Below, piece after piece: positions 1-54,604 of a stretch of 64,000 nucleotides of DNA (its first letter is position 1; every line of letters starts with the position of its first letter). The notes below the pieces were generated by a model, which saw nothing but the letters and a program-made list of their open reading frames with translations, had not been told where the DNA came from and did no database searches. A program made the translations under genes and the position numbers. Origin of the DNA: Bolinopsis microptera (lineage: Eukaryota > Ctenophora > Tentaculata > Lobata > Bolinopsidae); the NCBI RefSeq assembly GCF_026151205.1, contig NC_087073.1:8905411-8969410 (forward strand), written 5' to 3'.

Positions 1-1979
1 CATGAATCGGAGGATGGTGGGAATTTATTACAATTATTTAGTGAAAAAGGCTTAAAGTAAAACGATGCCATAGAAATTAATCTGATCGTTTATATCTAGA
101 AAATGAAGAATTGGAAATTGGGATTTCAACCGTCGTGAGTTGGTACGTGACACCTGTCGTTTAATGGGTTTACTCATGGTAAATACTGATGAATGAGGGA
201 TGAATATTTGATAATCTTTTGTCCATGGAGTCAACAAACCGAGTCAGGTTTGCTTATAGTTATACACGTGAGATATGTCACGTCTATTATGTTATATCAT
301 TGGCAGCCTTTATACTTCTGCTTTTGATTAATCTTGCTTATTAGCCGCGATCGAACAATGAGAAATTATCATATTTTGTAGTTGTGTGTACACTCATTAC
401 TCTATTACGTTTATATCCGTCATCAGTATCTTTATAAATTTTGAACTGGTAGTCTTGGATGTAACTTTATCTTTAATGTATCTCTGGATAGTTAGGTTAG
501 TAAGAAATTCAAATGTCATACTAGGGAGCAACTAGCTTGCAGCTGAATACGATTTATACATGTATTTTGAAAGCTCCTGCTTAATAAACATTTCGTATCA
601 CTTATATGTTTTAAACAACCCCTCCTGGGAGCAACTGAATAATTCAACACAATTGTCAATAACCCTTACCTATCTAATATGGTACGGTTTAGGATAATTT
701 GAATAATCTGACGATTTATCTGGTAAACGGGACAATACCACAAAACCATTTAGGAGCGATTATCATACGTCATGTCCCATAACCTTTATCTTAACTCTAA
801 TAACTCTATGTTGGAAAATTCAAAACGCTAGCCCTCTACTATGACCCCAACCCTAACCCTAACTCAATCCCTATAACTCCAGCATCTGATAAACCCCTAA
901 TGATAAATATTACTTACTTCCTTTTATGGCCATGTCACGTGATCAAGACAGTTTTTCGTGATAACTCGTCAGGGAAACATTTTTAACTCTAAGTCATGTA
1001 GGGTGATTCGGTATCAGCGTTAAAAAATACATCAAATTAAGTTGGAATCCTAAACTCTAACCTTTACCCTAGCGCTACACCTCACCATGACCCGAACCCT
1101 GACTCCACTGCGACTAGAGGTTCTGGGAGAACAACAGTAATGGAGCACAACCACCTGAGGCAGGACATCCGTTCTGTTGAGGAAAGTCATTTGATTTTGC
1201 TAGTTGAATTTATTAGTTGTTCGTAAGATTCTCAGAGGGCTTGTCATCCATATTTTCCTGGTACATTGTCGGCTTGATCAAATGGGACAGTGGCATTATC
1301 TCTGCAGTAAGGAAACTTTAAAATTTTCTCGTCGTAACAGCAAGGTCCCACACTTCAGCTGATTCAACAGCTGGACCTGGCAAGTGGGGCCTGGCACATG
1401 TCTCAAGGTTTGTTGATGTGCAGGGTTTTAAGCAGTGGTAAGCCCTTCCTGCCATCAACATGTTGCAGTACCATCCTTACTTAACTGTCAAATAAGTACA
1501 AGAGCGTTAGTCCACTGACTTACTCTTAGGATAACTTTGACACATTTATGTTGATAAGCGCTGGTGGTGCTTTCAATGGGTTCTCCCAGCATTTGAAATG
1601 ACATAAACAAGCGCCACACTGGGTCACTGGGTCCTGATAAGTGGAAGTGTGCGTGAAACTGGTCATAGGCATGTCCCCTTATTCCCAGAAGAGATCAACT
1701 GAAGTATAAGATTTTTGTACCGGTTTTTCAGCTGGCGAAAATTCTGGAAGAGTCGTTGCGAGAGTGTTCTGTTTGAGATTTTTGGTTAGATGGAAGAGTT
1801 TTTCATTGTATATTTTCATCCCTTACCTCTATTATGTTACTTGAAGTGGGCCTGGATGTCTTATCTGCTAACCCCAAGCATTAAGCAATTATCGTCTTCG
1901 TGCTGGTGTAGCACACAAAGAAAGCAATGTTGATGCAAATTTGAGATGGCATCAGGATTTAATTATTATTATATAATGT
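1..1979. other. Intergenic, no gene seen
   Basis: I see no open frame with splice sites or domain content here. The stretch is moderately AT-rich. It has a short telomere-like run of CCCTAA words near 846-862, degenerate relatives near 1050-1105, and CACGTG palindromes at about 265 and 936. Parts of 240-370 look like a diverged copy of 3240-3490 (shared CACGTGAGATAT and GAACAATRAGAAAYTATC words), which suggests an old duplication. Confidence 0.5.
843..862. repeat. Short interstitial telomere-like CCCTAA run
   Basis: About two and a half CCCTAA units stand in a row, with degenerate variants for the next 250 bases. This is too short to be a telomere. It may be a scar of DNA repair or chance. 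Confidence 0.4.
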
Positions 1980-2130
1980 ATATATTTTAAAAACATATTT
2001 ACGTTATATTTTCTACTATACTATTTTTTTCGCCATATAAAAACATATACATAATAATTTTGTAATATATTTTAATACTTTCAACACTACTATAATATAA
2101 CGAATAATTCGAGTATTATTATGTAATGGG
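1980..2130. repeat. AT-rich dispersed repeat G, copy 1
   Basis: The segment shares blocks with 3990-4095 (runs such as AACATATTTAC, TTTTTTC-CATAT and AAAACATATA) and with 53868-53945 (TTTTAATACTTTC then ACACTACTATA then AACRAATAATT). Three diverged copies in one window mark a dispersed repeat, probably a decayed transposable element. No coding capacity is visible. Confidence 0.6.
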
Positions 2131-3989
2131 ATGGAAATGCTTTAACCAGGTACCGCTAGTCCACACCCAGGCTCCATAATATGAAGGACTTGTTTTAATT
2201 CTGAATGAAAAGCTCGAATATTGGTATTGTCAATTGTTTTTGTGCTCGTCGTTGAGCAAATATTTATTTATCATATTGTTTATGATTATATCTACTGTAT
2301 TTGTATATCATATCACATATTTATTTTTAAATCATCATATGTATCTATTTTTACATACATTTATTATTCTATTTATCTGTTATTTTATTATATCGCTAAA
2401 TGCTGATTTAGTTACTATTATCAAGCCCAGCTGTACAAGGCAGGGAGTAAGGACGTCGTGTATATGTTTTGGCATATTTCTGATTACATGAGGATCCGAA
2501 AGTAACCAAAAGAACTGAAGTTTCCCATTTTATGTTAGTCACGTCTTTCGTCGATCCGTACCATGTTTTTTAGAAGCCGTGTTACGTTTTCCCAGAGCTC
2601 GACATTCGTTTACTTTGTTAAATTAAAATAAAAGAAAGAATTATCCGTGAATAGGACGTAAAGCAAGTTAATCGTTCGTCATAGGCATTTGACGCCATTC
2701 AATATCGACGACGAATGTGTTATCGCCACAAAGTGGCTCCAATGACTCAACATATCGGTGATATCTATGTACATATCAGAAGGATAATTTTCTGGTGATA
2801 CAGAGGACCAAAAGTCAGTATACACTATACATACGTTGGGTATTATAACAAAGCCATGTTTCACATTTGAGACCTTTAACTTTGCGTTGCTACAAAACCG
2901 TGCTTTCTGCATGATTCCCATAGTACTGATCTAGTATCAACCCTATCACTTGATCCCACGCAATGAATGAAATATAACAATGCATTACAATTTGAATCGA
3001 TCTAATCATTCGAAATATCTTTAAAAAACCGCAAAAATGGACGTTCGTTCGGAAAAAATGAAGGGCGTTATTATTTTACCTGATATATTCCTCGAATGAG
3101 CGATAATAGCAAGTCATACCAAAAAGAATTATTTCAATCGGGCACTCAACGACTGACAATATATACTAAATTTTGTCCCCCTTTACTTTTGCCGCTGGTC
3201 GGCATGTGTGAGAGATATTTAAGTTTTTGTCTGAGGAGGCGGACTTGAGATATAGACACGTGAGATATAGCCATCTGATCCACTGAGTGATGATACATTC
3301 TGCACTTAGACAATGCTACACCGACAAGCTCCTTTCATTAAAGATTAATTCTTTTATTCCCCCTGCTGGGTTTCGTATTTTGATACATGTATAATATTAT
3401 ATCATTATATGACTAACTCTTAGATTGTGATAAATCTTGCTTTGATCTTTGCCGTCGTTGCCGAGCGAACAATAAGAAACTATCGAGTGAGGTTGCCGTG
3501 CCGTGTAGACTATGTTGCGTTAATTAATCTTAGCTCTCTCTCGTCTCGGTTCTTAATAGGTTTTGCACTGCTAGTATTGTACGTATCAATATTTTTGTGT
3601 TTAGTAGCAATATTTACTCAACTGGTTACTCTCCCTAGTGTGGGATCCCAAACGACCGATCAACACGAAGGTTTGTTAATTCCGTTAGTAAAATGCGATT
3701 GTATCTTGCTTACTCCTTAGACTTAAGAGCGACCTGTTCTTATAATGGTCTCTGCTTTGTGAATGCTAGTATAACCAAGAATTCGGTTATCCAACTCGAA
3801 GTTTTTAGAGATAGAACAGTAATTTGAACTTCAGGACAAGCACAACATTATGTTTGCTGCACTAGATCATCTCTTTCTTTTTTAATAATAAAAGGAGTTA
3901 TTCTTAAGAGTTAGATAAGAGAAGCATACTTTTGGCTTTCACTCGAAAAATAAAGAAAAATAGATTGATTCCAGCGATTAGGGTTTATC
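2131..3989. other. Intergenic, no gene seen
   Basis: Only short open frames occur. The longest, a 97-codon plus frame at 3427-3720, is hydrophobic mainly because the DNA is T-rich. It has no recognisable domain. Nothing else is supported. Confidence 0.45.
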
Positions 3990-4095
3990 AGTATGCAATT
4001 TCTATTATACATTTTTAAACATATTTACATTAAATTGTATACCACCCTATTTTTTCATCATATGAAAACATATAGGTACATAATATTGGTAAAGT
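3990..4095. repeat. AT-rich dispersed repeat G, copy 2
   Basis: This stretch aligns by eye with 1985-2060: a poly-T/A block, AACATATTTAC, a T6-C-ATCATAT block and AAAACATATA-GTACATAAT. It lacks the second half seen in copies 1 and 3. Confidence 0.55.
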
Positions 4096-7000
4096 CATAG
4101 AAGAAGCTGACTTTTGACTCAGTCTGCATTAACAAAAATAAATACCAGTGTATTTTTTGGCAGGCCTGGACTTTACGAGAGCCCTGCCCTTATCTCATCC
4201 TGTTTTTTAATTATCTAGAGGAAGTAGGAGGAAATAGATGCTGGCACTAAATCACTTATCACAGATAAGTGCACTGTGCAGGGTCCCTAAGTCCACTCTG
4301 AGGAAGGAAATCCCTCTCTGAGCTCCACCAACTGGAGTAACTGGATCAGTGTTATCGGACTTGTCATTACTGAGATTCAATAGACCAACTCTTCCTTGAA
4401 ATATCAAATGTTTGATAATCGGCTAATCGGAACTACGGTAGCACCACGATGATAACTTACGATCGCGATTAGGATTGTTCGCCCCGCGGTTCTGTTGATT
4501 CCCTTTGTAGTATAACTGTGCGCTGTTCTTCGTGTCTCGGTCTATAATAAGCCGAATAAGTAGTTACTCTAGCCAATATAAGTAGTAAACACATGTTAAC
4601 AACAGTCTCCGTACTAAACCAGACGTTCATTATCACATCCATAATATGAAATTATAGGTATTAAATTGTTGCCTATTGATTACAAGTAACATTTTGTGAT
4701 TTGTTACCTAATTGTAGCAAGTCATTGTGCACGGACCGGGCCTATTCATTTAATTGGAAATACAAATGAGCTCAAAACACAATAGAGCAGCATATAATGC
4801 CTCAGTTTGAATATTTGCCGATAGACGAGGTCTAATCTTCGTCAGCTCATTATTCACCGCACCCCACTAAGAATTGTCACTAGGCAAACAACCGTTTATC
4901 ATGAAACTTCTGTAGTAATTTTGGATCGATTATAGGAAATTTTGGATCTACTAGGCGACTGGAACCTAATTCAAAGTGACGGTTCATACAGTTTAGAGAT
5001 AAATTACGGCACCGTCAAATTGCTAAACGTAATTGAAAACACAAGTAGGGCACATGGTTTGAAGGGATGCAACAGGTTTGAATATATTGATCACCTTAAT
5101 TTTTAATGGTCAACCACCCTGTTATTTACACCGACAACAAAACGTGTTGCCATGGAGATAAAGACAGCTACCAGACATGAAGCAGCCACCCAAATATTTA
5201 GCTATAACCTGTACAGTATATAAACAGTCCCCCTTACTCATGACTGACAGGACATTTGTCGTGCTGGTTCTACCATTTGCTTTACCCGGAGAGCAGTCAA
5301 TAATCCCCTAGATGATGCGTGGACCTTGTAATAGCCCAATAATTACTTCAGGGATTCGTCCGTCTCTACAAGTACAAACCTGTGCCCCAAACAAATTCGA
5401 TATCACAAAACATTAGCTGTGATATCTGATGACACTCTCACTCTATTCTGTGCTGCCCCGCTCCAAGCCGTCTGGAGGTACCCTCTAGCTGGTGGGGATG
5501 TCGGGTATGAGACCAGCACCCTCACACAACACGTGACCTGAGTTAGCACCTACTCAAATTTGAACACTGCCGAATTTGTCCGGCTTCATTCCTTGGCTCA
5601 CAGAAAAGAGTGATAGCAGTGGCCGGACAAGTCCAGGCACCAGCAGCACGGCCGGGAGTCGAGCAATGCCGTGCCGGATGTTTCAAGCAGGGGTATGTTT
5701 CTATAAATTAGATCAGCTAGTTGTCCCGGCCAATGACAAAGGGGCAAGCTGTCACGTGTGTCTCCTTCGACCAGTTACATCACAATATTCTAGTTACAGT
5801 ATGATGAGTTGTACTCACTTTTTGCCTGAGTCTTTGCTTGTCCGTAGTTGGCGGAGGAGCGATGACTCCTACCCAGGACATGACCAATGGTCCTGTGGAT
5901 TTATCATCTGGTGAGGTGGCTAGCAGTTTAGCAGGCTCCACCAGTTTAGCAGCTCTCCAGCCGTCTGCATTCTGAAACAAAACCAAATTGTCAGTTCTGA
6001 TCTATCTACTGAGGTCGCGTTCTTTTGTTTTGTGCACTAGTTAGTTAGTCTTCTAACTCTGTGATAATAACGTACGGTAACTATTTCTGTGTTACTTACC
6101 TCCTCAATCTATCTGCCTATCTTCTTACTACTGTGCCACATCAAATTATCAAAAATAGTTTCAGTTATAAAGAATGTGTAACATTTAACTGTGCCTCACG
6201 TATTTTGAAGCTGGGCTAGTCACTGCCCGGAGATTTAGGATCGTTAATGTAGACTCGTACTCTTTGTCCACCCGTTGCTCATGATATGAATCTGCAAAAA
6301 CACACGTAGGTCAATAACTTTAGACTGGTCCAGAAAGAACGGACAGCGCTTTGTTACAAATGAAGTGTGCACAGTGCCTACATGCCGCGAAAAAAACAAT
6401 GAATTCATATGAAGACAAAGGTTGAACTCTTTCTAGTTAAATTGGGTGTCCGTCTCTTCCGATATGAAGACACGTGATATTAGTGGTGGCATTCAGGAGG
6501 ATCAATTTGGGTGGACGGGCTTTGGAATTCAAAAAGATTTGGAAGGCCTCAAGATATTAAAAGCTTTTTATAGATCTGAGGAAAGTTAATGCAATTTTGC
6601 TCCGATTCGCCCTTTTTTTCAAATGGTAGAGAATATATAAAATCATCATGTTTATCGGTAAAAAATTATCATTTGGCGGACAAATTATATTCAGTGCATC
6701 CGCGATCATCACAAACCCAAAAACTTAAGATCACAGATTTCATTCCAGATTTCCACCAAAAGTTACATGTGAATTGAAACCGAGGAGTTTGTTACACGAG
6801 GAATTTATTCTACAATATACAGTGCAAAAAAACTCTCATACGACCCTTTTTTGTAAAACCTTTAAGAATAACCTTACTTTAAGTAGAATCTAAGATAGAA
6901 ATTGTGGTTTGGATCTCCGTCTCATGAATATATGGTTAGGTCATAGCAAGTTAGATGTTCAGGTAGACAAAATCTGACTTTGAGTATGATTTTGCCGTAG

Positions 7001-8039
7001 GTTGTTGATTAAGGATGGCCGGAAGGTAGGCGAAATGGCGTCTGGCCGAGAGTTAAGGGGGCGTGTTGGGTGCTGGTTTGTCCACGTGCTCAAGGGGGCG
7101 GGTTGCTCGCTGTGCGCTGCACGTGCTGACACACTAACATCCACGTGTACATCCGGCTCTGGATCCGCAGTTTAATTAGCGCAGGAGCTAATGCCGCATA
7201 GAGCAGTTGTCTAAGCAGGATAACTATAATGGTTCGGATAGTAGCTACGTGGCAGTGCAGTGGCTGACAACTCACAAGGGCATGTGATAGACCACTGCGC
7301 TGGCTGGCTTATGTCTCCGATTATACCACCGCCCAGTCAATATGTTTAGCTCAAAACCTAAAGCTTTAGTGGCTGAGGCAGATATTAAGCCAAGAGCTAG
7401 CAGCAGCCGAATGTCGATAAGCACATATTATTATGATAATGACAACATGAGGTCCCCCTGTCTGCTCGCTCTCAAACAGCTCTGACGCACCTGCGTACTG
7501 ATTTTTCAGCCACATGCGATGAAAGCTATTTCTACGACTAGCTCAACAACAATTTAGATGTCGGTCTAAATTTTTTAGATCACACCAGATGACAAACGTA
7601 AATCTGAAATGCATTTTAAGCTGATCCTGAGCGTATTTTAAGAGACGGCATGTTTTTTAAATTGCTTTTTTTTGATATATGTCGAAATGGTGGCAATCAG
7701 GTTGTTAAGGACCCACGGAAGCCCATCAAATTGTCGCATGGGAACATAATAATTTGAAATTTGAGGGTGCTTAGCGCCATAATTCGCGGGAGTCGCACCT
7801 TTGGCACTGAAAGGTTTCTTTGTTTAACTATCATGTGGCGTATTATAATTGTAGTAGAAATAGACCGGGCAGACAAGGACCTGCTCCGATATGTACGGTA
7901 GATAAGATACACTAGACGTGTAATAGGTCCAGGTCCTGATAGAGGTCTAGATAAGGGGTCAGATCAGGGCCCAGCAAGCAGGATGACAATCAGCTGGAAG
8001 GTATGATGGAAGGCCATGTGACAGGGAAGTTACCCTGCC
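4096..8039. other. Intergenic, no gene seen
   Basis: Mixed-composition DNA without convincing exons. CACGTG occurs at about 5530, 5753, 6471, 7083, 7130 and 7142, three of them within 65 bases. The 112-codon plus frame at 5576-5914 and an overlapping minus frame have no family features. Confidence 0.45.
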
Positions 8040-8420
8040 AAACCGGGAACTTTGCCCCCGCGCACCCCGGAGATTAGATTAACAATCCTCAGACTAAACA
8101 GCCAGTCTAGCGTCTGATTGGCGGCCCGGGTAACACGTGAGCAGCACGCTAAGTGCCATTGGCGGGGTATATTTAGTGTCAAGCGAGTTGGTGCGCGGTT
8201 TGCGCTGTTAGCACGTGATAGCAGGAGCAGCTTGGCATGTCATTTCCCCGCTCACACACCGTCTAACAGCCCGACCTACACGAGCACCGCGCCGCACGCA
8301 GCACCCCCCTCCCTACTGTAAACCGACTCCTGGGATCCCTCGCTCCACACTCCCGCTACTTCTCACGTCCACCAGTGGGCTAATATATCCGTCCATCACT
8401 TATATATCTCCTATCTAGTT
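8040..8420. other. GC-richer, CpG-bearing patch
   Basis: The patch is clearly richer in C and G than its surroundings, has several CpGs and two CACGTG sites (about 8134 and 8212), and is followed by a C-rich, pyrimidine-biased tract. It could be a distal promoter or enhancer. No initiator or exon can be proven from sequence alone. Confidence 0.3.
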
Positions 8421-11400
8421 TTGTTACTTTTACTCTGGCCTTGCCTTCGATCTTAGCACCTCACACCAGCTTTGTTCATTTATAAAGAACCGTCTCTCCT
8501 TTCAATATACAGTCTGCAGCCAGATCTATTGTCAAATATATTAATCAGTAACATGACAATGGACGCTATTACATAAAATGTATTAATTTATTCATTATCT
8601 AATTTAATCAATATTGAGTCTCCCTCAGGATCATTTTCCAATTGACAATTTAGTTTTGTATTGATAAATATAATGCGTACTTACTACTTATCAACCAATA
8701 TACTGGTCAATTTATTGACGAACCGCCGGAGTCCAGACAGACTTAAGACACGGTATAAAATAAGGCTTCTCATCTGAATTAATCATTTCGTAGCCCTCGA
8801 GGTGTCTACGTACTCTCTTGAAGTCTAACACTATACGAGCTGATCTAACTTATACAATATGTTCACAATGTTGTAAGATCACTCCCTAGGGCTGGGGATT
8901 AGTTTTATTGCTGGCTTGTTGCTCTGTGACAGTTGCTAAGACACACGTTACAAATTACCTGGTGGTCAGTTAGAGACTGGTTGTCTTCTTGGTATAATTC
9001 AGGGTGAGCACTGCTTATTGTCAAGAGTTTTACAAGTGTTGCATAATCATTGGGCATTGTCTAGATATAGCCAGGTTCAATACGATCTCGGCATTGAACG
9101 TCTAATAATTCGACAATTGTGATGGTGGGTGCTGGTCATTTTCCAATTATTTTTAATAGCGAAAACGTCCTGGCAGAATTGTAGAACAAAGGGCCGTCTA
9201 TATCATTCTAGTGACCTCTCGGGCCCCCTTTTATCCTCTGTCAACTTGACTCTTAGCTGCATGTCTGATACCAACCCTAAAAGTAAAAGTAAAGGTTGCA
9301 ACTCTGGTACTACAACACTGATCTTGTCTGACAAAAGAGGATGACGCCGAAAATTTGGCTCGGTAGCGGTTGTCGGAACAATGACGGGGGGTTCAGTTTG
9401 TATTGTGTTGAAACAAGTGGGTGACCGAGCCGGTCACGTGCAATCCAAGAGTTGGAGTAGTAGTACAATCTAGCTAGATAATGATAGGTAGCTCTTCTGA
9501 TGGAGTCATGTCGTTTAAATTGCCAGGCTGCCTCATTGTACTGCTCACGTTTCATCATCCGCTGAGATATCAGCTGTTTGAGTGGACGTCCCTCCTCCAA
9601 AGTATACCCGTCACGTGTCACCCTGGGAACACAGCTCGGAGTTTTCTAACCTTCACTTTTAATGACCGGGGAGTATTTGCTCAATATAATAAGTATAGTT
9701 ATGATACCTCATTCATTACCGATCTTCGGCGAGTTTTCTTTCTGAGTGGGATAATTTTTGTTGTTGCGTGATTAGTTGACGTCCTGATATATTACGAGCC
9801 ACTGTTAGGTGATGTCAGTCAGTGCGGTTTCGTGCTCGGAGGTTCTGTTTTGTTCTTTCGTACCTCGTGAAGAGTTTTAACTAACACTTTACTAATGTGA
9901 ACTATTAACTTCGAGCCGCCAGTATGGTTAATCGGCTCACACACTTTTAATTTTATATTCCGCCCCTTTACATACGGTGCACGATCATGTGCGTTCTAAC
10001 GGTGATTCACATCTAAACCGTCCCTATTGTTTTCTCTGTCTAGTTCTGTTAAGAAAGAAATGAAATATAGAAACAATATGAGTTGCTGGGGGCTATAATA
10101 ATAGCCAATGTTACAGGCTGCTAGGGAGCTGGTCAATGTTATAAGTTGCTGGGGAGTGGGGATCAGCTATAAAGGTCAATGTTACAGGTTGCCTGATCTA
10201 CTAGTTTTCTGTGTTGTTAGTCTTAATATTTCTTCTTCTTATTTTTGAAACCTTTACACCAGACACCAAAAGCTGATTCATGTTGACACTTCTTCATATT
10301 GATTTTTAAGTTAGTTAGTTAACACGAACCACTCTTGAAATAGAGGTTTCTGCAGAACATTAGCGGAGGATAAATATGAAAATTTAAATCTAGGGGGACA
10401 TTGAAACAAATGCGCATTGTTTCAGTTAGTCACTTAAATTAAACCAAAGTAATGGAGACTTGTATTTAGGGCGGCATCCTGAACTCTCAAATAGATTGAG
10501 ACTATGTTCTCCTATTAACCCACTGCCAGCAGATGAATAAAATCTTGATAATTGGTGTTCATGGTTGCTTTAATGACTCATTATGTATGAGGTCGTTAAT
10601 TATGCATACGGTCTTTTGTTACTCTGTCTATTTCGTGTTGGTACTATAAAACAGCAAAAATGGTGGAACTTTAAAATCTCACGTGTCAGGATATCAAGAC
10701 TGCTTGAAACTTTGAGTCTCAGGGTCTGAGGGTCTGATGAGATTTAGCTCAGGGTCTTAGGTCGTTAGCTTTTACCTGAGTTTAACCTCTTTTCAATTAG
10801 CTAAACCATCCCCAATATCTCAAAATTTCCAATAGAAAGATTGAACGTAAGTAATGATACCGAATACCGATACATATTGTTTTAGCTTAGGTATAATAGC
10901 TTTGCGAGACTTTTCGGTCGCTTTCTAACCGTTTTTCCTCTTCGTTAGTCTTTCACCAACTTCACGGAAATGGTAATAAAAGTTCCGAATATTGATATGT
11001 ACCAAGAATGGCGAACAGCCAAGTATTCATTGTCATAAAAATATGTGCGCTCAAACAGTTTAAGATGTTAAAAACCTTTTTCCCGTTTCCAGTTTTAGAA
11101 TGTGTTTACTGTTTAACAGATCTCATGTTTATCCCCACATTGTTTCCTAAATTGAGATACCAATTAATAGATATCCATTTTGTGCATAGTATGAGAGAAG
11201 TTGTTGGGTAGATGACGTATAATTTTACTCAAGTATTATCTAGTCAAGCCTTTAAGGTTAGGAGCGTGGACCCTGCAGCTACAGCGATTTCGGAGAAAAA
11301 TATTTGCAAACTTCATTCAGCAACACCGAATTCAGAGAATTCAACAAGAGTTGCAACTTGTTTCCAATGTCCACATTTGTATAGGAGTAATGAGGCGACA

Positions 11401-12559
11401 TTAGTTCTAAACTGTTGTTTTTCAAGAATTATCCCCAGCAGTCATTTTTTGCTCAAAATAAAGAACTTTAGCCACATATCATCCAAATTCCTAAATGTAA
11501 ATAGCCTTAAAAACGTCCATAACAACATTTCTGTTGCCAAAGGAATCAATTAAAAAGAAATCAAGTTCGTATACTTTGTAACGGCCAGATTTCGGTTTTG
11601 CGGTCGATTTTCTTTAACCTGATAATGTAATGATTCAATAAAATCGAGATCCTTGTTTTATGGCATTCATTAAAACTGTTTCAGAATAATTTTTTTATTC
11701 GGAAAAAAAAATACTGTTATGCAATTGAGAGCAGTAAATTTATTGATCTTGAAGAGCATTGAGTTTTACTTACTAAAATATTTCGAAGAAAATGGCAATT
11801 CCATATATTTGACACCTCACTGCAACGTTCATAAATGCAAAGACAAGAGCTTCTTCCCTAGACCCACACTAATTGACGGCGAGATATCGTTTCTTATGTC
11901 CTCCAATACGGTAACTGTCCATTACACACTGCAAGGTATTTGACAAATTCCTCTCCAGAGGAAGATATCACGAGGTGGCACTCTCTCCGAGTAGTGCCAC
12001 CTTCCCTTAGACCGGCATCATACGATTAATCTCCGTCTTGCGACTCATCCTAGCAATCGGGAGCCTAAACATTCGGAGTTCTACTTTATATACACTTCTA
12101 ACAAGATACGGCCATCCAGTGCAAGGTAATTTCCACGAAATTGAATCCGACAAATTAGCTTAAGAATCTAACATACTCCAGTGCCGACACATTGAATCTC
12201 ACTTTATTGTGTTTTCAATGGCGAAGTTCGCCTTCCTTGATCTTAACAGTTATGCAGTAAGATACTTGTTACGTGTTTACATGTTTAGACCCACTGTTAA
12301 CAACGCGAATCCAGGAGCTGTATTCCATTTTCAGAAGCTATTTACTTGCACTGTAGATATACTACTGATTTAGACTAGGTACAGTCTGCCCATGGCATGC
12401 CACACGTGTATCCTGCAGATCTAATGCTCTTAAAAACGTGCCCTCCTAGATCTTTTGATATCTAGAGCAGAATTATGAATAGCCTCTTTTCAGTATCGCA
12501 TATTTTGGAAGGAATATGGTCGACGGTTCTTTTAGGCTGGGCTATTATAGAATCGAGCT
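8421..12559. other. Intergenic, no gene seen
   Basis: I found no coding exon. The 113-codon plus frame at 11212-11553 has unstructured composition and no domain, and I consider it chance. CACGTG occurs at about 9435, 9612, 10680 and 12403. A small imperfect tandem repeat lies at 10078-10195. Confidence 0.45.
10078..10195. repeat. Imperfect short tandem repeat
   Basis: The phrase CAATGTTAYARGTTGCTGGG recurs about three to four times with spacers of different length (start words near 10080, 10107, 10134 and 10170). The copies have diverged and the array is short. Confidence 0.55.
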
Positions 12560-12799
12560 CGGTCAAATTCAGGGATTTGTCGGTCTAGATACGGTTCATA
12601 GTAGACAAGTGTGGTTTAAGGCAACGTATTTCGTCTCCTAGTAGATGAAGTGCACTGAACCACTCTCTCTCACGTTGCCAGCGTAAAGGCTCGCTCTGCT
12701 GAAGCCCAGAGTGACCACAGTGCGAGCAGTCTATGATGTGGAGTTGGCTTGTGACAAGCCAGGTAGTTAACTGGAACCTGGCAAGTGCTTTGGAATTGA

Positions 12800-13321
12800 T
12801 GGGTAATGTCACGTGGTCGGGGAGCTAAGTGACGACGCATGAAGGAGAGTGGAAGAGAGCCACGTGATCCCCCGGTACAACCCGGTCACATGACCGCTGC
12901 TCATTGCTCTCCCAAGTGAGACCATGCCCGCCAGCATCTCAGCGCACTATTTGCTCCCACTTCTCCGGTTGCTGCTGCTGCAGCCACTTTGCACCGTGTT
13001 TAGTCTCATTTTACGAGATACATGTACAGACTTCACGTGACCACGTGACCGTATCCCAATAAGTCACATGACCCGACGTCACGAGGTACGGTTGTTTTAG
13101 TGACGAGTCCACTGAGAGCTGGTGTAGCTGACATGACATAACACGGATCACGCGACCACGTCAAGCTCAACTAGACGTCGCCTAGATATCTGGGTAGCAG
13201 TAGTTGAGAGCAGCAGCGCAGGACTTGGCGTCAATTAAGCGTGGACAACACGGCGGGGAGCGGGTCTCAACGCGCGGATAGTGAGCGTGCTACTGGGCTG
13301 AGAGATAAACGTGACTGGCAG
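12800..13321 (+). promoter_or_regulatory. CACGTG-dense promoter candidate and possible 5' exon
   Basis: CACGTG stands at about 12810, 12861, 13034 and 13042. Near-matches (GTCACATGAC, CCACGTCA, TCACGCGA) lie between them, in a GC-richer patch. About 280 bases further on, a good donor (CAG|GTAAGCG) is at 13321/13322. This could be the promoter and noncoding first exon of the DMRT gene, whose first coding exon begins with a splice-acceptor-like sequence at 19876. The link is inference only. The patch could also serve an unseen transcript. Confidence 0.3.
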
Positions 13322-16300
13322 GTAAGCGAGGTGACTGAACCCTCACTATACCACGCTCATAGCCACCACTCCAGCAGTATTAGACACCAGTCTCACTTGT
13401 TCTTTTCCCCGACCTCGCCCTCTTTCTTCCCATTCCTCTGTCCCATGTGTCCAGCCAGCTGTAGTCAACTCCGTCAAGTTTGCCTTCTGTTAAAGACCAC
13501 AAAAATGTTTCAAAGTGATAGCAGCACTTGTGCGGTGAGGTCGTCATCTCCGACTTTTAAAAGCCAAGTGTCATCTAGAATCCGTACATATGTGCCAAAT
13601 TAATATATATTCTGTGCTTGTTTCGTCGTTTAGTGTTAAAAAGGAACGCTCTTTCGAGGTGTCTTACTTATTGCCTATCGTCCGTGGACTTTATATCTCG
13701 TTCCTCGAATACTTGCATTCTAGTTAACACTACACTGGACAGCTCACGTCATTCCTGACTTTACCCTGGCATTGTCGTGACTTTTGAATTTAGTTGTTAC
13801 CTGCTCTGAAACCCGAAGAAGTATTATCACGTTTCTTTTTTATTAGACATGCTCTGTAAATAATGGTCTTATTGATGTCACTTTAAAAATAAAAGTTAAC
13901 GTAAATTCTATAGAAAGTACTAAATATGCTTGTTAATTTATCATATCAGTACGAGGTCCTCAGTAAAGCATGAAGCCTTTCGATACACTTCTGCGCTTCT
14001 TTATATGACAACATTTAAAACTTTAGTTACCCTTAAAAAGTAGCCACGTGCTCACGGTAAAACTTAAAGGCATGTTTACTATTTACGTGATCTTTGGGTG
14101 GTCCGAATTTGCTCTATTAGTGATAGAATTTGACTAACGAAACGTTAAAGTTTGTTCTAGTCAGTATTGACACAAATACCCGGTTTAGACGACGAAACGG
14201 GGTCCAATTGTTATGCACAATGAGTGCTACAATAGAAACCTGTAAGACCGTCTGGAGAGAGTCTAATACAGCAATAAAACAGCTCAGTAAGCCATTTATT
14301 TTTTCACATTAGTGTTATTGTTATATTGTATTTAAGTTTGCCTGAGCTGACAAAAGGTGCTAGTAGAGAGTTTTACGTTTTCATTCACAATTACGAACTT
14401 GGCGCCTCGTTTTGCCACGTCTCGGCTGTTTTTTCTTCTATGTTTTGCAGACAGCTTCAGCAAGCCTGGTTTCATTGTGGAAAGTTTTCCTCATCAAACT
14501 CGATTATCGTACGGCTGACATTTTCATTGGAAATTTTAGATTATCGCACGTGTTGGCGATAAGATAAGTAAGTACGTCTCGGATAGTAAGAGATTGTTAA
14601 TTCTTTGTAACGACATTTTACTCGTAAAGAGTTTGCTCATCTAATTGCAAGAAGAGCAGCAAATTTTCGCACAATAATCATCTTAATTGCGACTAATCAG
14701 TGGCAGTTCCCATCCGGAAACTACTACTTACCATACAGTCATCGCTACACATCTTGTTACAACCCCGCTCTTTTATCGGCTGCTGCCAAGTGCCAGAGGA
14801 AAGTTTCAAATCAATTGTGCAATCCCAGAGCCGCATCATTTCCATTCTTACGAAGTACACGTGATTGCCAATGACTTGCTTGCACATATAATAACACTTA
14901 CACAGAGAGCAAGAAGTGGAAGGTGAGACTAGTGGAGCTGTGAGACTTATAGTGGGAGTTGGAGAACACACTTGCTGCATTGTCCCACCGCAGTATATAG
15001 ACTGTTATTCAGACTGTTACTGGTATAGAGCAGACCCGGCACGTGTGGACCAACAGTCGTGAGGTTGGTGCTATACGAAGGGGTGGGTTCTGGAGTTGTG
15101 TACGTGTTATTATAGATCTTACTCTTGGACCTATAATTATTACACGTTGTGGATCCTAGACATAGTACATTATCTAGGAGTTGAATTTCGTTTCAATGTG
15201 TTTCGTCACTTCGTGGCATGGTAGCTCCAATTTCATAACACTGAGCATTTGTAACACTTTGTGAGAACATTCTAGATCTGTAACTCTGTGTGAAAGTTGA
15301 CCTCAGACAGAAAGTTTAAGTAGGGACCTGCTGTTTGGGGAGTATCAGTCTGTCATAAGAAGGGTTCTAGATAGGTCTCCTCTCGATAAGGGGATGAGTA
15401 TCAACTTCTTGCCTCAGTCTGCCGTGTGTGGTGTCTGAATACCGCAGACTTGACATGGGATGACTCACAATGGTTATCCTTGCCGGGGATACGGCACTAG
15501 TCTATAGAGACAGGGGCCAATTTCATGTGCTACTGGCAAGTATTGTGTGGCTTCCCCTATGGTTGGCTATGGCACAGTCTACTTAGAACTATCTAAATGG
15601 GAGTCGATGACCCGCAAGTTTCAGGTCCTAGTACTGACCTCACACCGGTCTAGAAGACGAGCTAGCCGGCCTTAATAGTCCTGTCCAGATCAAGATTTAT
15701 GGTGAATCTACCAGTCGAGAACAGAAATTATATCAGCTGTGAGCTGCCCTGATATAAGCTTGAACATGTCTCGACTCTCGCAGTTAACAGGGCTTAGGAT
15801 CTCATAAAATTGTTTCAGTTGCCTTGTCCTTAGTTGTCACTTGATACTGGGGCTTGCGCGAGGTCATTACCCGATCTTTCTAATTCGACCTTTCCATTAA
15901 AGTTTGAGCTGAAGCCCCGTCACGTGTGGTGAGAAGGAGGGGCAGGCACTCACGAGGCAAGAACATTGGGAATGCGAAATTAGAGAACAGACCAGACATG
16001 AGACAAAGCACGGTACCACATGAGAAAACGCTACTCAAGATACAGCTTTGAAACACATGCCTCCTCTAGTACTACCAGGGAAAATGTTTCAAAAGCAGCT
16101 CGATCTCCAGGATTTTCACACCACCAAGGTTGGCTCTCACGGCCACCCTGCCAAGATCTCCAATTACACGAAAAGAGGGCTCGTTACGTCATTTCCGTAA
16201 ACAAGTGACGTAGCTAAGGTCAGGTGACAGTGAAGGAGACGCTACACGTGAGAAAGATGTAACGGAAAAATGATGTGCGAGTATATCACTAGCTCTGTCA

Positions 16301-19240
16301 TATTAGCTGAAACACGAGAGGGGGCCGTGCTGGGGGATCTGCTATGACTGGCTCGCGTGTGCCCCCTACCTCCGCTTCCAAGGTCCGCCATTGTCCAGCT
16401 GCCGCCACATGCTCCAATGATGTCCGCCGGAGCTATATCTACTTGGAGATCGGTGACCTGACATCGGTCCCAAAAAATACCAATTTATATCGGGGTAGAA
16501 TGCCTGGGAATCGTTTGTGATCTCGTGTGTCGTTAAACTATATGAAAATAAGATGTCAGCAGGTTAACAGCAAATGCCAGGATATTTTCTTAACCAGTAA
16601 GATTTAAAAGATTCCTCCTAATTGTAATATTGTTAAACTATTAGCTTGTTTCAAGATTCAATAGACAAGAGATTTCAGTGCATCTTGTCACGTGGAAAGC
16701 AAGACTATGTCATTTGTATAATCCGAGTTTAAAGCGCAGACCTCCGATTAATAATCCGGCGGGGTCCCGTTTTCCGGACGCCCCTTTGTCTAAATTGGTT
16801 TAATTGCCCGTTAATCGGCTAATCGATTCTAGTGATTAGTATCTCCAGTGATGGACATTGCGGGAAACAATAGGTAGTCACGTTACGAGTGGTATTCTCG
16901 GCACACGGCACGCGTACATAGTAGACCTTGTCCAATGAGAGCTCGCTAAACAGTCACGTGTCCCAACCAGAGCCAACCAGATCGCTCCGTTCCTCGGATC
17001 TGTCTACGGAGGAGGTCCTGTACTGACCTCCAAACTGAAGGGCTTCTCTTTTCAGAGCAGTATAGTACGTCACCCTTGTAATGTTTCCCGGACACTTCGT
17101 AACTTTAATGTGGTGCTATTAATTAGGCTGTCCACCTGATCCTGCGATAACAACACAACTGCATAATATGATATACCATGTTCATTATTTATGTGCATAA
17201 TGAGATGGGATATGATGACATGTATTTTCTCTGCTGTAATCAGTATATATTAAGTATTGCGGTGCACGTGTTTTTGGACATCAAATGGCCAAAACCTGAC
17301 AACGTGACACCCCTCGGAGTCAAGACCGCCACAATCCCGTCAGTCAGGGGGCAAATTCCCTCAAATCGAAAGCGAACTTGGTACCCCTTATCAATCTGTC
17401 ATTTGTATTTTTTGCTCAGTTCCCTCACTTCGTAACATTTCTCCATTGTTGGTGACTAAGCTGCCGTTTAACTAGGTGTTTTGTCATACACTACCGGGCT
17501 ACAGTTACGTCAGAAATGTGCATATATTTACATATTGCTCTTGCTACTTGTATTTCAACGGCGTGCACGCACGCTGCACAATTACAAAATTGTAGTGGCA
17601 AGACCAAGGAACACCTTCAACTTCAAAGCTTATCTCCAAAACTATATTATATGTATATATAAACTATATCGACGTCTATAATTTGGCCATTTTTCGCCAA
17701 AATTTAGACGTCTATCCCCGTCATGGGAGGTCATAAGTGGAGCCGTCGAAGTAAAGTCGAGCTAATTGTAGGGAGGACTGCACTGCTTTTGTTTTGCCGA
17801 AGGACCGCTTTGTTTGAGATAGGACTGTTTTCCATTGGTCTATAGTAGTCTAGAACACCATGCAAACCGTCGGACATCTGCATTACTTTAAATTGACTTA
17901 TTGTTGTTGAATCTCTCGATCTAGACAGCAACAATCCCACGACATAACTTGAGATCTTTCAGAATTAATTAGCTTAATTAGATACAAGACGTGTTTCCAT
18001 TGTTCACCCCGGGATCCTGCTTTTAGCACTCTTAAACCACCGCTAGTCACCTGCACAACTCCTGCAGTAAAGTTAATCAGGCCGCCTGTATGAGGAGGAT
18101 AGCTACTAGATGAGGGAAGAGGTAAAGTAATGTCATTGACTAAGCTCCTTTGTGAACTTGTAGACTGGGTGTGCTTCAGTGTGAGTGAGACAGAGGCCAT
18201 GGTCCGGGCAATTAAGGTTTTCCATGTTGTATGTTATTGGTGATGCTATCGTCGTATCTGTCGGAAACTATTGATTCTGAATTTTGTGGGTTGTTGGGAG
18301 TTTTCTCTGCGTTGGCATGGACGTCCTTTTTCTTTGGTGAGCAGCATGAAGCATTTGCATAACACGAAGCCGTCTCTTGAACATCATGCCAACTCGTTGC
18401 GTTACAAAAGTGAGTGTCTGTGTGATTTCAAACCCGTATAATCGAAACAAAAAACCCGTACTAGTTTCGAAAACCCTAGAATCACAAAGGCTATGGCACA
18501 TAGTTTCCCTTTGTGTGCATTTTACCTCGAAAAGTAGGAACAAAGAGAAAAGTTGTCATTGCAAGCCTTTAAAAAGTCTAATTTGTTAAAGATGTAACAG
18601 GGACGTCAGACTGTACAAGGGGGGACAGATGGAGGCGGGGATCCCACATTGTATTGATCTGACATAGAGTGAAGCTGGGTTGTAGTCTTTGTGATGGATA
18701 GTATCTGGCACACATACAAGTATAGCCTGTAACTTATATGCGAAACCTTGGTGACGGGTAGCCGTCAATTAATATCGGTCACTCTTCCGCCTTGCTGATG
18801 TTTTTGGAGATGAATGCTTAGTTTTACAGTTGGTTGTTACCCAAAAAATCCTTTGATATTATTTCTAATTAAGGTATTTTTAGTCGGTGTATTTGATCTG
18901 CTGTTCGTTTTTGGAATGGCGACTGAGGACTAAATCGTGGCAATCTTATTCCCTGTCCGCCCATTACTTTCCTACCTGTACTTGCAAGAGCTTTCCAGCC
19001 CAAAGAATTTCAAATTTAGCATTTATTCATCAGTATTTTTCGATTTCAGTGAAAAATTTCGTGTAAAATCTTTGTATGAAAGAAGTTAAACTAACTTCAC
19101 CCGCCTTAGTTGCAATTTGCAAACCGAACTAAGTAACAATCTGAACTGCAGACAAACTACTTAGTCATCCATTATTTGACGGGCCCTTCTTTTAAGCCTC
19201 AGTGATTGGGGCCATGCATAAAGAGCCCCACCAAGTAAGG
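13322..19240. other. Gene-free stretch upstream of DMRT coding sequence
   Basis: No coding exon is supported. CACGTG is frequent (about 14045, 14547, 14858, 15040, 15921, 16245, 16689, 16955 and 17265). If the 5' exon proposed at 13.2 kb is real, this stretch is the first intron of the DMRT gene. Confidence 0.4.
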
Positions 19241-19860
19241 ATTCAATCAAGGCATGGTTAAAAAGAGGTGTTATTTGTCAAACAAGAAGGAACAGCAGAC
19301 TTGACGTTTGATAATGAAAATTGTTGAAATGTTTATTTGCTTAGAAAGTGAAGTTATGTCAATGAGTTGCTTATAGTTAGTCTGACGCCTCACCAAGTAT
19401 CTTAACCTTTTTGTTGAGATAAATTGTAACATAACTTATGTGATACATTTTTAGTTTAGTTTGGGTTGATTACTGCAACTGTTATCTGGGTTAATTACTG
19501 CTCATTTTATCTCCACTGACAACATCAATTGATGCTAATTTTTCATATGTTTATTTGTTGCTGTGTGTAGTTGTGTCAATGAGTTGTTCATAAAAAATTC
19601 GTGACCTCACTAAGTAGGGCACTTAGCCCATTAGATCCCTTTGTAATTGTTTTATTAGATAAAGTATACGATAAATTTTTGTTTTAAACATTATTAAAGG
19701 TGCTTAGTTTTGATTTGTTGCACCAACTTTTGTTTCCAACCACGTACCATTTGAACCGCACAAGAAAAGGAAACCTTATGTTGTTGCAACCCTTCTCTTT
19801 TCGTTGCATAATTTGGCTTGATTACTGCAACTTTTATCCATTGAACAATGTTTATAAACA
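19241..19860. repeat. Diverged direct duplications just upstream of DMRT
   Basis: A block starting TGTTTATTTG near 19330 and containing TGTCAATGAGTTG then CCTCACYAAGTA is repeated near 19547, a period of roughly 217 bases. A second phrase, TTGATTACTGCAACT, occurs near 19468 and 19817. The copies differ at many sites, so the duplication is old. It ends directly before the first DMRT coding exon. Confidence 0.6.
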
Positions 19861-19881
19861 TCGATCACCAATTTAGGAAGC

Positions 19882-21946
19882 ATGTCGACAGTAATGAAGC
19901 CGGAAAGCAACACCTCTCTCACCAAGACACGGAGACACAACAGAATACAAGCCTGCGCCAGATGTCGTGACCACGGTTAGCTCCCTTTTCCCGAACTTTC
20001 GATAAAACTTTAAAACTATTATTGTTTGTTGGCCTTTACACTTATACCACCACCTGTTAGAGCTCTGGGTTCTGCCATCTGATTTATATTACATCATTTC
20101 CACTTCAGCACATCACATACCTAGCAACGTTCACACACAGCCGGTAATACGGATATTACGTAGTGCACGTTTAACAGATGTGGAATAAGGAAATAGTTGC
20201 AAGGTGTGGTTTTATGTGGTGATGATGAAACTCGTCTTTAGGCCTGTAAAAATAACAAATCTCATAGAGGCTTGTAGAGGTTATAACTACATTTTAGTTG
20301 TTAAACGTTCCAAAGTTTAAAACAGCATTTATGAGTTCGTAATACCAGCCAGGCCCTAATGACCCACTTCCACAGATTTTAGTGCGAACTAACCCATATA
20401 ATTCAAGGACTGTCTCGCTAAGTAAATTAAAATAGTATCGACCATTCAAAGGCTGTCTGACACTACTTTTATTTAAGTCTGCTGATAAGAGTGGGGTATT
20501 AAGAACTCATTAGCCATGTGTCATTATGTCAGGGGAGCTCCTCAGTGTGCCGTGTCTAAAAACACTGTAAGTTGCAGTCTCGTCTCTAATCTCTATCCTG
20601 TCGGAGGAGAGAGGGAGGTTAGAAACATTATAAACGTGCTCTCAGTTCCTTACGCTATGCTTTTAGTGACCGACATGCCGGTCCAGTGCACTGTTTCCTA
20701 AATATTGGAGGCGGTATTTGCCCGGTTGCAACATAACTCGCAGAATCAGTAGATCGCACCGAGCTAACGACTTGTTCACTCCAGCTAATGAGCAGCCTAA
20801 TAATCACGTTTTGCACTTCATTTCTACATTTAGGACCACACTTCTCGGGCTAGTCTCTTGGACGTTGGTGTTCACCTTTCAGCTCACCAATACCTCACGC
20901 CCTCTTCACTCCCTCCGTTATCTTTTGTGCGGCAATTTTTCGCAGAGCTTTAATTTTCGAACAAAGTAGCTTTATAGTGCTCAAGTTGTGCTAGAATCTG
21001 AATTTGGTCTCTTTTATTATTACATCATTGTTTTGTTGGCGTTGATAAATCACATAATTATGAGTTATGCCTGGCTCGTTTAAGACTGAAAGTGGAGGAG
21101 TCAAGGGTCCATATCTTCAGAGAGGAGGAGGGTTTCTTACAGAATAAATAATAAGAGGATTTGCAGTCTGCCTGAGGATTGTGCGAGTATTTGGTTGGTA
21201 CCCAAAAGGAGTTTCTATTTCGCTGTAAACGATTTCAGAAGAGATGGAAACGTGCTATTTAGGTTCCGTACAAAGCTCGTAGCTGACGGGCGGATAAAAT
21301 TACCAAAAACCAACCCACTGCATGTCTAGGACAGATCAAGGGACGCGAGTTCCAACCTAGTTTTAAACCTGGCAACCTAATTTATTCTCGGGCAGGCAAA
21401 CGAGTTGACGATGGATAAAGAATGAGCCGGTCTAGACGTCTTAGCTGACCTGCTTATATTATTAGGGAAGCTATATTTAGCGTCACTACCGTATCTGTTC
21501 TTAGTCACAAACTTTTTTGTCATTGGTAACAAGATCAAAATGTACCAACCAATTACACCTGATTTGGTCAAATCATGCCCTGCATTATCCCCCAGCTAGC
21601 GCCAGCTAAACCCTGTAATCTACAATCTACATGTACACAATATATATTTTCAATGATTCTGTCGGTGCAATTCATTAGTAGTAAACACAGCTGGTCCCCA
21701 TCTTGCTGGTACCCAGTCCCCATCTCCACTCCCTCCCCCTGCTCCTGCCTCTCCCCCGCAGTTTTACTGGGTGCAACTCCACAGCTCTTATACCTGCCGA
21801 AGATCTGGAGCGTGTGGAGCGTGTGAGTGTGTATTTGTGACTACTAATGAAGAGTACTGGCACGTGACTGCCACAATTCTCCTAACAAGAGCTCTCAGTC
21901 AGATCAATGTTTAATTCCCTCTCTCGTAACAGCAAGTAGCTCGATG

Positions 21947-21992
<46 letters not shown>

Positions 21993-24900
21993 GAAAGAGA
22001 GTTATTTGTTGCCTGACTTGTTCGTTGTACTCTGTTTTCTTGTGTGATCTGGTATGAGTTGCTGGCAGGGGCAGTACACTTGAAATACCGTGCGTGTTTT
22101 TACACAGCAACTCGTCTTATCCCTGATCAATAGAACAGATTAGCCTATATCTGCTTACTAATGCTGCCCATTTTAACGTGTTTCTGACATCCTTATAAAA
22201 CGTGACGCGGGCTCCCTGTATAGTTTGTAGTTGAGTTGTCATCACCTCTCCCCGGTCAACGGAACAGAATAAGCACACTCAGAAGCTCGCATAACAGACA
22301 GCTTAGTGCTGGGTCACGTGACCAGACCTTGCACTTCTCAGTGGCCCGGAGAAACCGGGTCATTCTCCTTCGACGCTGTCATTATCGACAGAATTTGCCA
22401 CCTTGCTTTACCGTACTTAGTGATCGGCGTTGATTATTAAGTTTTGGATGTTTTAGTGTGCTTTTTTACGTCCTGTTATACATCAAAATATTTGATAATT
22501 GTACACGTTTCCCTCCTCTTGATCTCGCCTCGATCACCCTCCAACCACTTTTAGTAATCATTAGCCGTTAGGAAAAGGGCACATTTCGAGTGTTTTTGTT
22601 CATTGTTTTCTGTGATACGACCGATAATTGAATTGCATATAATTCCTTACCGATAACTGGTAATCAATTAAGATGTCGATAAGCCTGGCATGCGGTGCCA
22701 GCCGTGGAAAGCTTTTACAGGGTTCCCACCATTAGTATTTCACGTGTCAAGGGCACGCGACTCGCAACTTATTGTAGACAGTCGTCAACCGGACAGTAGT
22801 GACAAGGAAACATGTCTCCACAAACAAGAGAACGTGAGGGTCACCCGGCACACCACTTCCAGCAACACTTCCCTGCCCGGTGCTATGGTAACCAGGAATC
22901 AGAGGCAGGGTGTTAGGGATCCGTCATTTCAGTTTAATGAACTTTGAGGTGAGGAAAAGAGAGCTGGTTTTGGCGCTGAAACTCTGAGTGTATACCCTAG
23001 TGGACTGAGTGTATAATACATCAGCCTCTATAGTCTATATCCCTCACACGTGACTAAGAGATGACTAAAAGGTAGTCACGCATGAAGGGAGAGTCAGGAT
23101 CATAGGATGGCTAAAGACCGGAATCTGCTGGGTGTACAGAGCAAACCGCAAAGTGATTTTGAGAATAGAGGGCCGGGGCGCAACAACCACAATCACATAA
23201 ACAGTATGCGGTTTGTCCCACATGTCGAGGCGAGCACTGCGTTCCTGTATTTACAGCGTCCTGAACAGGCCTGTGCAGGATAATAATATTCAGGAACATG
23301 TCATTAATTATAGGGGTAGTGGGCCAAGTCATTTGTCGGATATGTAACGTCTAGTGACGACTGGCAGCGAGAGAGAGAGATGTGGAGGGAGGGAGAGGGG
23401 GGTTCAAGTGACTCAGTCTCCTCCTCCTAACGCTCTTGTAATATGTTTAGCTAATGTTTGTTGTAGAGCTCCTAGTCTCACAGTCACAGAACAAACAGAG
23501 AGCAAGGAAGAGAGAGGGAGAGAGAGAGTTGTTGCTACACAGTATATGGTTTGCGTGTTGGATCGCTAGTAGCTGCTCTCGTTAATTTGTCTCTCTCTCT
23601 CTCTGCCTCATCCCTCCCGGGTATTCTGGACCAGCATGACACGTGTGTGTGCCGAGTGTCTGGTCCGAAGTTTGGTGATCACTAGTTTCTGTGCCGAATG
23701 TCTGACGGAGAGAATGTGTGGTCTGCCTCCTCCGCCTTCTCCGCCTCTTGCCTGGTCCGTGGTCAGATCACTCAGTGTGTGTGTAATCCGTGTACATTCG
23801 TTCCAGCACATCTTCCTGTTCAGTTTTCCACGCTCATTCGGCACGTCGTTGTTAGTCTCTAGTGGAGTGATCTTTTGTATGACTATTTTCACATTATATT
23901 GAACTGTTTCCGCTTTTTTACTAGTCTCAGTCACGTCTTGTTATCGTATGTTTTGTTGTCGTGGACAGATTTTCGTTGAATATGTAGGATAAGCCAAATT
24001 TGATTTGAGGGAAAAGGACAAGAGAGCAGGGAGGAGAGCGTTATATAACACATGTCCACGGTCGTCGGTATATCTATCAGCATTATCTTGCAATTCCTGG
24101 ATCCCACATTTTTATGTCTAGACGATCGATAGTATTTTTCATCACTAGGAAACCCCTACAAGTCAGGCTGGTAGCCCGCGATGTGTATGGTAGTACGGTC
24201 TGGCCCTGTCACGTTCGATGTTACATTTTTGTCCGTCAAGTACAGCCCTTGTGCCGTGTACTGGAGTCGGCAAAACATCGCACTTTCATATCGCCTTATC
24301 CAATGTCACTTACTCTAAGTCGCTACTTCTCATTATATCTCTAACATTTTTCCTTTTCCTCTTCTTCTCTTCGCTGGTATTTAGTATTTACACATCCCAA
24401 ATTTTGTTATTAGGAATTCCTTGTCCAGTTTACAAATGCTCTGCCACACATTACACAACGTCCACTCGTCTAATTTAGTTTCTGTGCTGAATTTTCAGCG
24501 TATATACTAGCTTGCAGACGAAAAAACATGACTGAATTGTTCTCTAACTCGAATCATTACATTAGCCAAACGTAACCGAGATCCTCATCGCACCAAACTA
24601 TTACTCATCGGTAGTCCGGTGCACTTGTCAAAATATGTAGCTAATACCCTGCCTTCAGGGACGTTACATATGTTAAAAGGGCACAAGTCCTCGTGTCCGT
24701 GGAAAGATTGCACGTGCATCAAGTGCCGGCTGAGCTCAGAGCACAGAAAAGTCATGGCTGCCCAGGTCGCACTCCGAAGGAAGCAGAGAAAAGTAACCAA
24801 GGACCCGCAGATTTCCCTCGACAGTTCAGGTAGTGTTCCTATTTCCGCCTATCTAAGTGTATCTCACAGTGTATCTCTGTGACAGTAAGATCTCCTGCAC

Positions 24901-25963
24901 CCAACTAGTTCACACCAGGGTGTCAGGCCCGGAAATTCAAACAATTACCTTATTATTAGGGCGTGAGAAGAAAACGTCTTATCAGTTTATTGAATATGCT
25001 AACGATTAGGCATTATGTGAGGACATTAGCACCAGTAATCTAATAACATGTACGTTCTCGCTGCGGCACTCAGCAGCATTTACGATAAAATTAGTTTTTG
25101 GCCTCGTATCGGTTCTAAAATTACAAATTAACGGAGTGAGGTGCACGTGAGTGGTGTATTGTGTTGGGCAGCAGACAATACACTCTGCTTTGAGTATCAC
25201 ACGGGGGGTGTTTGTGAATATATACAGCTGGCTAACACGAATCTCTCCCACAGGACACCTGACGGAAGACTGTCCGATGAATGATGTCACGAGTATCCAC
25301 GACCCGTCCCCCACACACTCTTCACTCGGACTTCTTACTGAGCTCTTCTCCAATATGGACAAGAACACGCTCGCTCAGATCCTGACGAAGCACAACGACG
25401 ATGTCCTGGCTACAATAGAGGAGTGTCTAGACTACACGGAGTCCCGGGACAACAACACTAGTAGCACCACCCCGGCCCCCATGGAGGAGTGCTCGGTAAC
25501 AGACTACTCAGACTCTTCCAGAGACATGAACACTGATGGCACCTACTGCCCCCAAACATCACCCCTTGCCCCTCCACCCACCTTCGTTAAGGACACCAGC
25601 ATGCCTCGCGCCATCAGCCCCAACGCTCTGGTTAAGAGTGAGCCAGCCGACCTCCCACCTCAAGAGACAATGAGTGTGAGCGAACACTCACCCCCAGCCA
25701 CCCTCACTCCACCCAACAATGACTTTTCAATAAGCAACCTGATCACAAAAACACCTCGAGGGGTAGTGAGTACAGAAACGCCAACCACGCGGACTGTAAC
25801 ATCAGATCAGAACAGCCCCATCATCTCTCGACTGATGTGGCCGTTCTGCGACGCGGCTCTGCTACGGACTCTAGTCACGTGTAACAGCTGTAATTCTATC
25901 ATTCAGCTCGGCGACAAATTTTGCAGAGTATGCGGCATGCCGGCCTTACCTTTTCTCTTGTGA
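19882..25963 (+). CDS. DMRT transcription factor (DM domain plus DMA domain)
   Basis: A DNA-binding regulator of the doublesex/mab-3 family, expected in the nucleus. Three exons join in phase: 19882-19975, 24659-24829 and 25254-25963 (975 nt, 324 aa). The DM domain is split by the first intron directly after CARCRDH. It has all zinc ligands (C25, C28, H31, H40, C44, C49, C51, C54) and the family signature LKGHK followed by [16 protein letters not shown] domain follows at about residues 112-146 (LGLLTELF, then [16 protein letters not shown]), which places it with the DMRT3/4/5 (DMRTA) type. The centre is Ser/Thr/Pro-rich and disordered. The tail carries C298-x2-C301-x10-C312-x2-C315, a zinc-knuckle pattern I do not know from DMRT tails. 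A second acceptor 21 bases upstream in exon 2 would give a poorer DM domain. The sequence just before the ATG ends in TTTAG|GAAGC, so a 5' untranslated exon is likely. The exact subfamily is uncertain. Confidence 0.92.
19976..24658 (+). other. First coding intron of DMRT, repeat-bearing
   Basis: A GT-AG intron of 4.7 kb interrupting the DM domain. It carries a (GA)n tract at 21949-21989, GA/CT-rich patches at 23370-23600, and CACGTG at about 21861, 22315, 22741, 23047 and 23640. No exon of another gene is supported. Short open frames on both strands look like chance. Confidence 0.6.
21949..21989. repeat. (GA)n microsatellite
   Basis: About twenty uninterrupted GA dinucleotides lie in the DMRT intron. 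The reverse strand gives a meaningless Ser-Leu repeat frame. Confidence 0.9.
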
Positions 25964-54361: not shown

Positions 54362-54441
54362 GGGGGGGGTGTCATGTCCGTCTATGTCCGCCTATGTCCT
54401 GTCCTTTTTGGATTCTATGAGACAACGGACGTGTTTTTTGG

Positions 54442-54603: not shown

Positions 54604-54604
54604 C

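Follow-up and report, generated by a model that had tools for sequence, protein, structure and literature searches.

The palindromic hexamer CACGTG is preferred by transcription factors of the MITF, USF and MYC families, and the CLEAR / USF / MITF E-box has the consensus GTCACGTGAC. We analysed a stretch of 64,000 nucleotides from the ctenophore Bolinopsis microptera (the window), in which CACGTG is concentrated around a DMRT gene. The exact core is common to this E-box and to the sites described here, and genome-wide GTCACGTGAC outnumbers its reversed control 19-fold (8,495 versus 439 occurrences, partly in tandem arrays). However, the full ten letters are found at only one of the 47 sites in the window (site 22315).

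Homotypic clusters of transcription factor binding sites, a term used in PMC4621482, likewise bring together many copies of one exact site in the flank of a gene. The cluster reported here differs in its length of about 21.7 kb and in the raised genome-wide background on which it stands, and its members are candidate sites by sequence. A single exact palindrome that exceeds expectation by far throughout a genome is described for cyanobacterial HIP1 (PMC4390886); here, in contrast, the genome is that of an animal, the core has six letters, and the excess is 2.87-fold in samples and lies partly in tandem arrays. Within ctenophores, the CTEP1/CTEP2 loop-anchor motif resembles CACGTG in being widespread in regulatory DNA (PMC12221973). 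That motif is described as GC-rich with two CpG dinucleotides, whereas CACGTG has one, and the terms CACGTG, bHLH and E-box are absent from the main text of the same paper (PMC12221973; motifs compared by description). Among the literature matches listed, we found none that describes an excess of CACGTG in a ctenophore.

A CACGTG cluster at a DMRT gene

The gene lies on the forward strand. Its predicted first coding exon (19882-19975) holds the first part of a DM domain and is followed by a predicted intron (19976-24658) that is bounded by GT and AG and is in phase. The next exon (24659-24882), in which position 24882 marks the end of the open frame and not a mapped splice site, carries the rest of the DM domain (PF00751). 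Alone this later exon scores 47.9 bits (1.2e-12), and the score rises to 64.2 bits (1e-17; cut-off 27) when the two parts are joined, which places the gene in the DMRT family. A further open frame on the same strand (25151-25963) runs to the presumed DMRT stop and contains a weak DMA motif (18.2 bits, under the cut-off of 23). A comparison with Pfam covered 13 open frames from this 26-kb part; only two matched, both from the DMRT gene and one of them weakly. Other genes upstream of DMRT were rejected, because the 11 open frames taken from the upstream part (ten of them at least 90 amino acids long and before 19.8 kb) had no Pfam match.

Five Dmrt genes are reported for Mnemiopsis (PMC4971632) and the present genome contains seven DM matches at six places; a DMRT gene is therefore no surprise in itself. 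At one of these places (C4:8286591-8287978) two partial DM matches are near neighbours on the same strand, an arrangement reminiscent of Mnemiopsis MlDmrtB, for which two alternative DM exons are reported (PMC4971632).

An exact recount returned 36 CACGTG sites at 1-25963 and 11 at 25964-64000, the numbers that the sequence-only reading had given as approximate, and the local excess it described is confirmed. None of the other 64 palindromic hexamers is as frequent in the first 26 kb (36 occurrences of CACGTG; the next has 21), and under an order-2 model CACGTG has the highest z-score of all hexamers there. The expected number is 4.4 under an order-1 and 6.7 under an order-2 model. Relative to the latter CACGTG is present at 5.42-fold, and the nine classes of one-letter neighbours range from 0.12 to 1.41, with CACGCG (1.41) and CATGTG (1.40) the highest; CAGCTG is mildly raised as well (1.78-fold).

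A maximum-likelihood scan of 94 contiguous kb, made up of two 10-kb stretches upstream, the window and one stretch downstream, placed the best segment at 5530-27204, with 34 sites in 21.7 kb. None of 300 uniform placements was as extreme, and in the same scan 5-33 of 100 placements were as extreme for seven control palindromes. The two stretches upstream of the window contain 0 and 4 sites, and three lie in the window's first 5.5 kb. The cluster stands well above its local background. The extent first proposed, 1-25963, does hold a cluster, but the best-supported edges are those of the segment. The excess had been suggested to stop at the end of the DMRT gene; the segment includes one site (27199) past the DMRT stop. 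Both tight groups pointed out earlier are present, with three sites at 7083-7147 and four at 12810-13047. By position, 28 of the 36 sites are upstream of the predicted ATG (25 of these at 5530-19881, the upstream part of the cluster), five are in the predicted intron (the first at 21861) and three lie beyond it, with coding occurrences at 24711 and 25876.

The extended forms TCACGTG and CACGTGA, which had been thought frequent, reduce to a weak preference for T at position -1 (29 of 72 half-sites in the first 26 kb). GT occupies positions -2 and -1 in 16 of the 72. The comparison of flanking bases that the sequence-only reading had recommended thus yields weak preferences at these two positions but no strong extension, and a long shared consensus was rejected. 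The weak flank consensus picks out no single reader.

Genome-wide background

The genome searched (264,652,675 bases in 232 contigs) contains 116,822 copies of CACGTG and 46,887 of the reversed word, and CACGTG occurs at 0.44 per kb. A glutamate receptor encoded in this genome (L019) has a Mnemiopsis ligand-binding domain among its many receptor matches. The figure of about four sites expected by chance in 26 kb does not describe the true background: chance at 40% GC was the wrong assumption for a genome in which CACGTG is favoured throughout. The local excess is therefore about three-fold over the genome rather than nine-fold. An equal density in the rest of the genome, which had been named as grounds for abandoning the idea, was half borne out, in that the genome is enriched but the first 26 kb still has about three times its density.

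We sampled 15 chosen 10-kb stretches on 12 contigs (150 kb before masking), in which GC is 38.1% and which contain 72 raw sites, 0-17 in each. After masking of arrays 52 sites remain, 2.87-fold over the order-2 model; by z-score CACGTG then ranks second among hexamers, behind CCCCCC, and the nine classes of one-letter neighbours all lie between 0.77 and 1.22. Over-representation in this genome thus concerns the exact word and not its neighbours, as judged from the whole genome with its reversed control and from 15 spot samples, and is in this respect HIP-like. On the same measure the rest of the window together with its flanks reaches 2.27-fold. Set beside 5.42-fold in the first 26 kb, these values describe a local excess on a raised genomic floor.

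If the de-duplicated mean of the samples is used in a Poisson model, 36 sites in 26 kb have a probability of 2e-10. With a negative binomial, which was fitted to the same 15 samples and allows for the unevenness observed among them, the probability of at least 36 sites in 26 kb is 0.001, so that about ten such stretches are expected in the genome. One sampled stretch has 17 raw sites, more than the highest of six fixed 10-kb bins in the window (15), and retains nine after de-duplication, in which a site was dropped if its 24 flanking bases were a near-copy of those at a site that preceded it in that stretch.

Flanks of other DM and T-box genes

At five other DM loci we counted sites in the 10 kb located 5' of the DM match, a region that may be intron. 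These flanks contain 12, 9, 6, 11 and 7 raw sites (11, 9, 6, 11 and 7 after de-duplication), compared with a mean of 4.8 raw and 3.9 de-duplicated sites per 10 kb in the 15 samples (Mann-Whitney p 0.013 and 0.004, respectively; n=5). With five loci the enrichment is suggestive, not firm. Of six T-box loci four were taken for comparison; their flanks contain 4, 4, 4 and 3 sites and are not above random (p 0.36). On these counts an enrichment at developmental transcription-factor genes in general was rejected; when DM and T-box flanks are pooled against random stretches, p is 0.075 raw and 0.019 de-duplicated. The order-2 measure is 4.92-fold for DM and 3.02-fold for T-box flanks. Nearly all T-box exon matches (16 of 17) are on one contig, C3.

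Candidate readers

The genome contains 29 HLH matches, of which 20 were retrieved and three compared with solved structures. The best match of one is MITF (L030, 3.5e-27), the second is USF2-like (L037, 1.5e-11) and the third MYC-like (L038, 1.7e-13). Candidate readers of CACGTG are thus encoded in this genome, and several are possible for the sites.

Repeats and tandem arrays

A scattered element carrying the motif had been offered as one origin of the excess. We reject this for 34 of the 36 sites. They lie in three stretches (3250-12300, 12300-17400 and 17401-26000), none of which matched anything but itself in a similarity search of the 264.65-Mb genome that skips very common words. These sites are therefore in independent DNA that was not copied with a repeat. 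A single site of the 36, at 936, lies in a recognised repeat, and it alone among the 36 was in shared sequence when the window was compared with itself and a further 180 kb; a transposon origin of the cluster was rejected. The dispersed repeat that holds it (818-1045) has at least 37 other near-full-length copies, 78-79% identical, among 39 scored of 2268 candidates, and for site 265 the repeat search likewise scored 39 of 2268. There was no Rfam match at gathering thresholds.

Throughout the genome 31,946 pairs of CACGTG have starts 6-36 bp apart, compared with 5,459 pairs of the reversed word; the latter number, from 46,887 occurrences, means that the reversed word is also strongly clustered for its rarity. 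Several unrelated tandem arrays with units of 17-23 bp contain CACGTG in the first 0.71 Mb of contig C1. Three sequence-unrelated minisatellites there, with units of 18, 22 and 23 bp, all include the word (C1:492442-492827, L053; 414997-415354, L052; 708736-709153, L054). Arrays bearing CACGTG account for seven of 292 TRF rows, which may overlap, versus 0-4 for each of twelve other palindromes, and the association is suggestive only. In four of five fetched arrays (L051 was left out) mismatch is 0, 0, 0.7 and 3.0% in the core and 1.8, 2.0, 2.1 and 0.6% in the rest, a mixed result that lends no support to the idea that CACGTG is better conserved than the spacer.

In array-masked DNA we found 12 CACGTG pairs 20-24 bp apart versus 0-5 in other 5-bp bins, a peak that was recognised post hoc, that includes one duplicate pair (L013) and that decayed arrays could produce. 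Pairs at 20-23 bp, about two helical turns, are seen at sampled loci such as L016, L022, L024 and L025. Elsewhere in the window, 32024-32369 is a GTCACT hexanucleotide array of 57 copies with 98% match, open in several frames, and 54441-57423 is a long purine-rich degenerate tandem array with a GC skew of 0.46-0.51, flanked by 10/20-bp repeats.

Interpretation

We favour, with a probability of roughly one half, a homotypic E-box cluster that extends over the flank upstream of DMRT and the first intron of the gene, set in a genome with a general preference for CACGTG. What is observed here is a cluster with its edges in single-copy DNA, the enrichment of one exact word, its genome-wide excess and the genes for bHLH-leucine-zipper proteins; to this the reading adds binding and effect, which we infer. 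The 34 sites in 21.7 kb, most of them in the 14-kb upstream flank and the first intron, would form the homotypic cluster. Dimers of the MITF/TFE, USF and/or MYC-MAX type would bind the candidate sites, which may jointly provide the DMRT gene with a distributed enhancer region, in a setting where CACGTG is presumably a favoured control word across the genome. The sequence-only reading had left the choice between a large regulatory domain and a scattered element. It is partly upheld: the regulatory domain fits, because the DNA is single-copy at a transcription-factor gene, the exact word is enriched, five other DM loci are similar and readers are encoded, while the element fails for all but two of the 36 sites.

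The main rival is a genome-wide process unrelated to DMRT. CACGTG would then be an over-iterated palindrome, kept by repair, recombination, a methylation-related process or architectural binding that hardly concerns this gene, and the window would simply come from the upper tail of the distribution. The excess of CACGTG and of GTCACGTGAC over their reversed words, the second rank of the hexamer in array-masked samples with flat neighbours and the negative binomial probability are all as this account predicts, but it leaves unexplained why density here rises to three times the mean within bounds that enclose a single gene, and why DM flanks are above random while T-box flanks are not. We regard it as rather unlikely, if the strongest challenge. 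Because the enrichment is genome-wide, a large part of it may have no bearing on DMRT.

An origin of the sites as remains of decayed minisatellites or transposons with CACGTG-bearing units seems improbable. The unrelated arrays of contig C1, the surplus of closely spaced pairs and the 20-24 bp bin agree with such an origin, but the reversed word is strongly clustered too, only two pairs in the window are closer than 30 bp, the single-copy stretches contain nearly all of the sites, and the neighbours expected from decay, CACGCG and CATGTG, are hardly raised. Highly improbable is an effect of composition or chance. GC is indeed higher in the first 26 kb (41.8%) than in the sampled stretches, and GACGTC, GTGCAC and GGATCC are likewise more frequent in that part, but this explanation is largely refuted by the Markov expectations, and the DM flanks L024 and L025, at 37.0% GC, still carry 11 and 7 sites.

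A broader and doubtful possibility is that CACGTG has a privileged place throughout the genome of this ctenophore, maybe as a binding platform for a bHLH-leucine-zipper factor with a global regulatory or architectural role. It may take in the leading place among complex hexamers in array-masked DNA, the core common to unrelated minisatellites, the pairing at 20-23 bp and the concentration at DM genes. The ctenophore lineage is reported to be without CTCF (PMC12221973).

Returning to the homotypic cluster at DMRT, an exact word that is enriched throughout the genome and gathered at DM genes provides a directly testable entry, with candidate readers that can be named and a site that lends itself to counting in the genome of any ctenophore. 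The rival account by a global process would, if true, be the more novel result.
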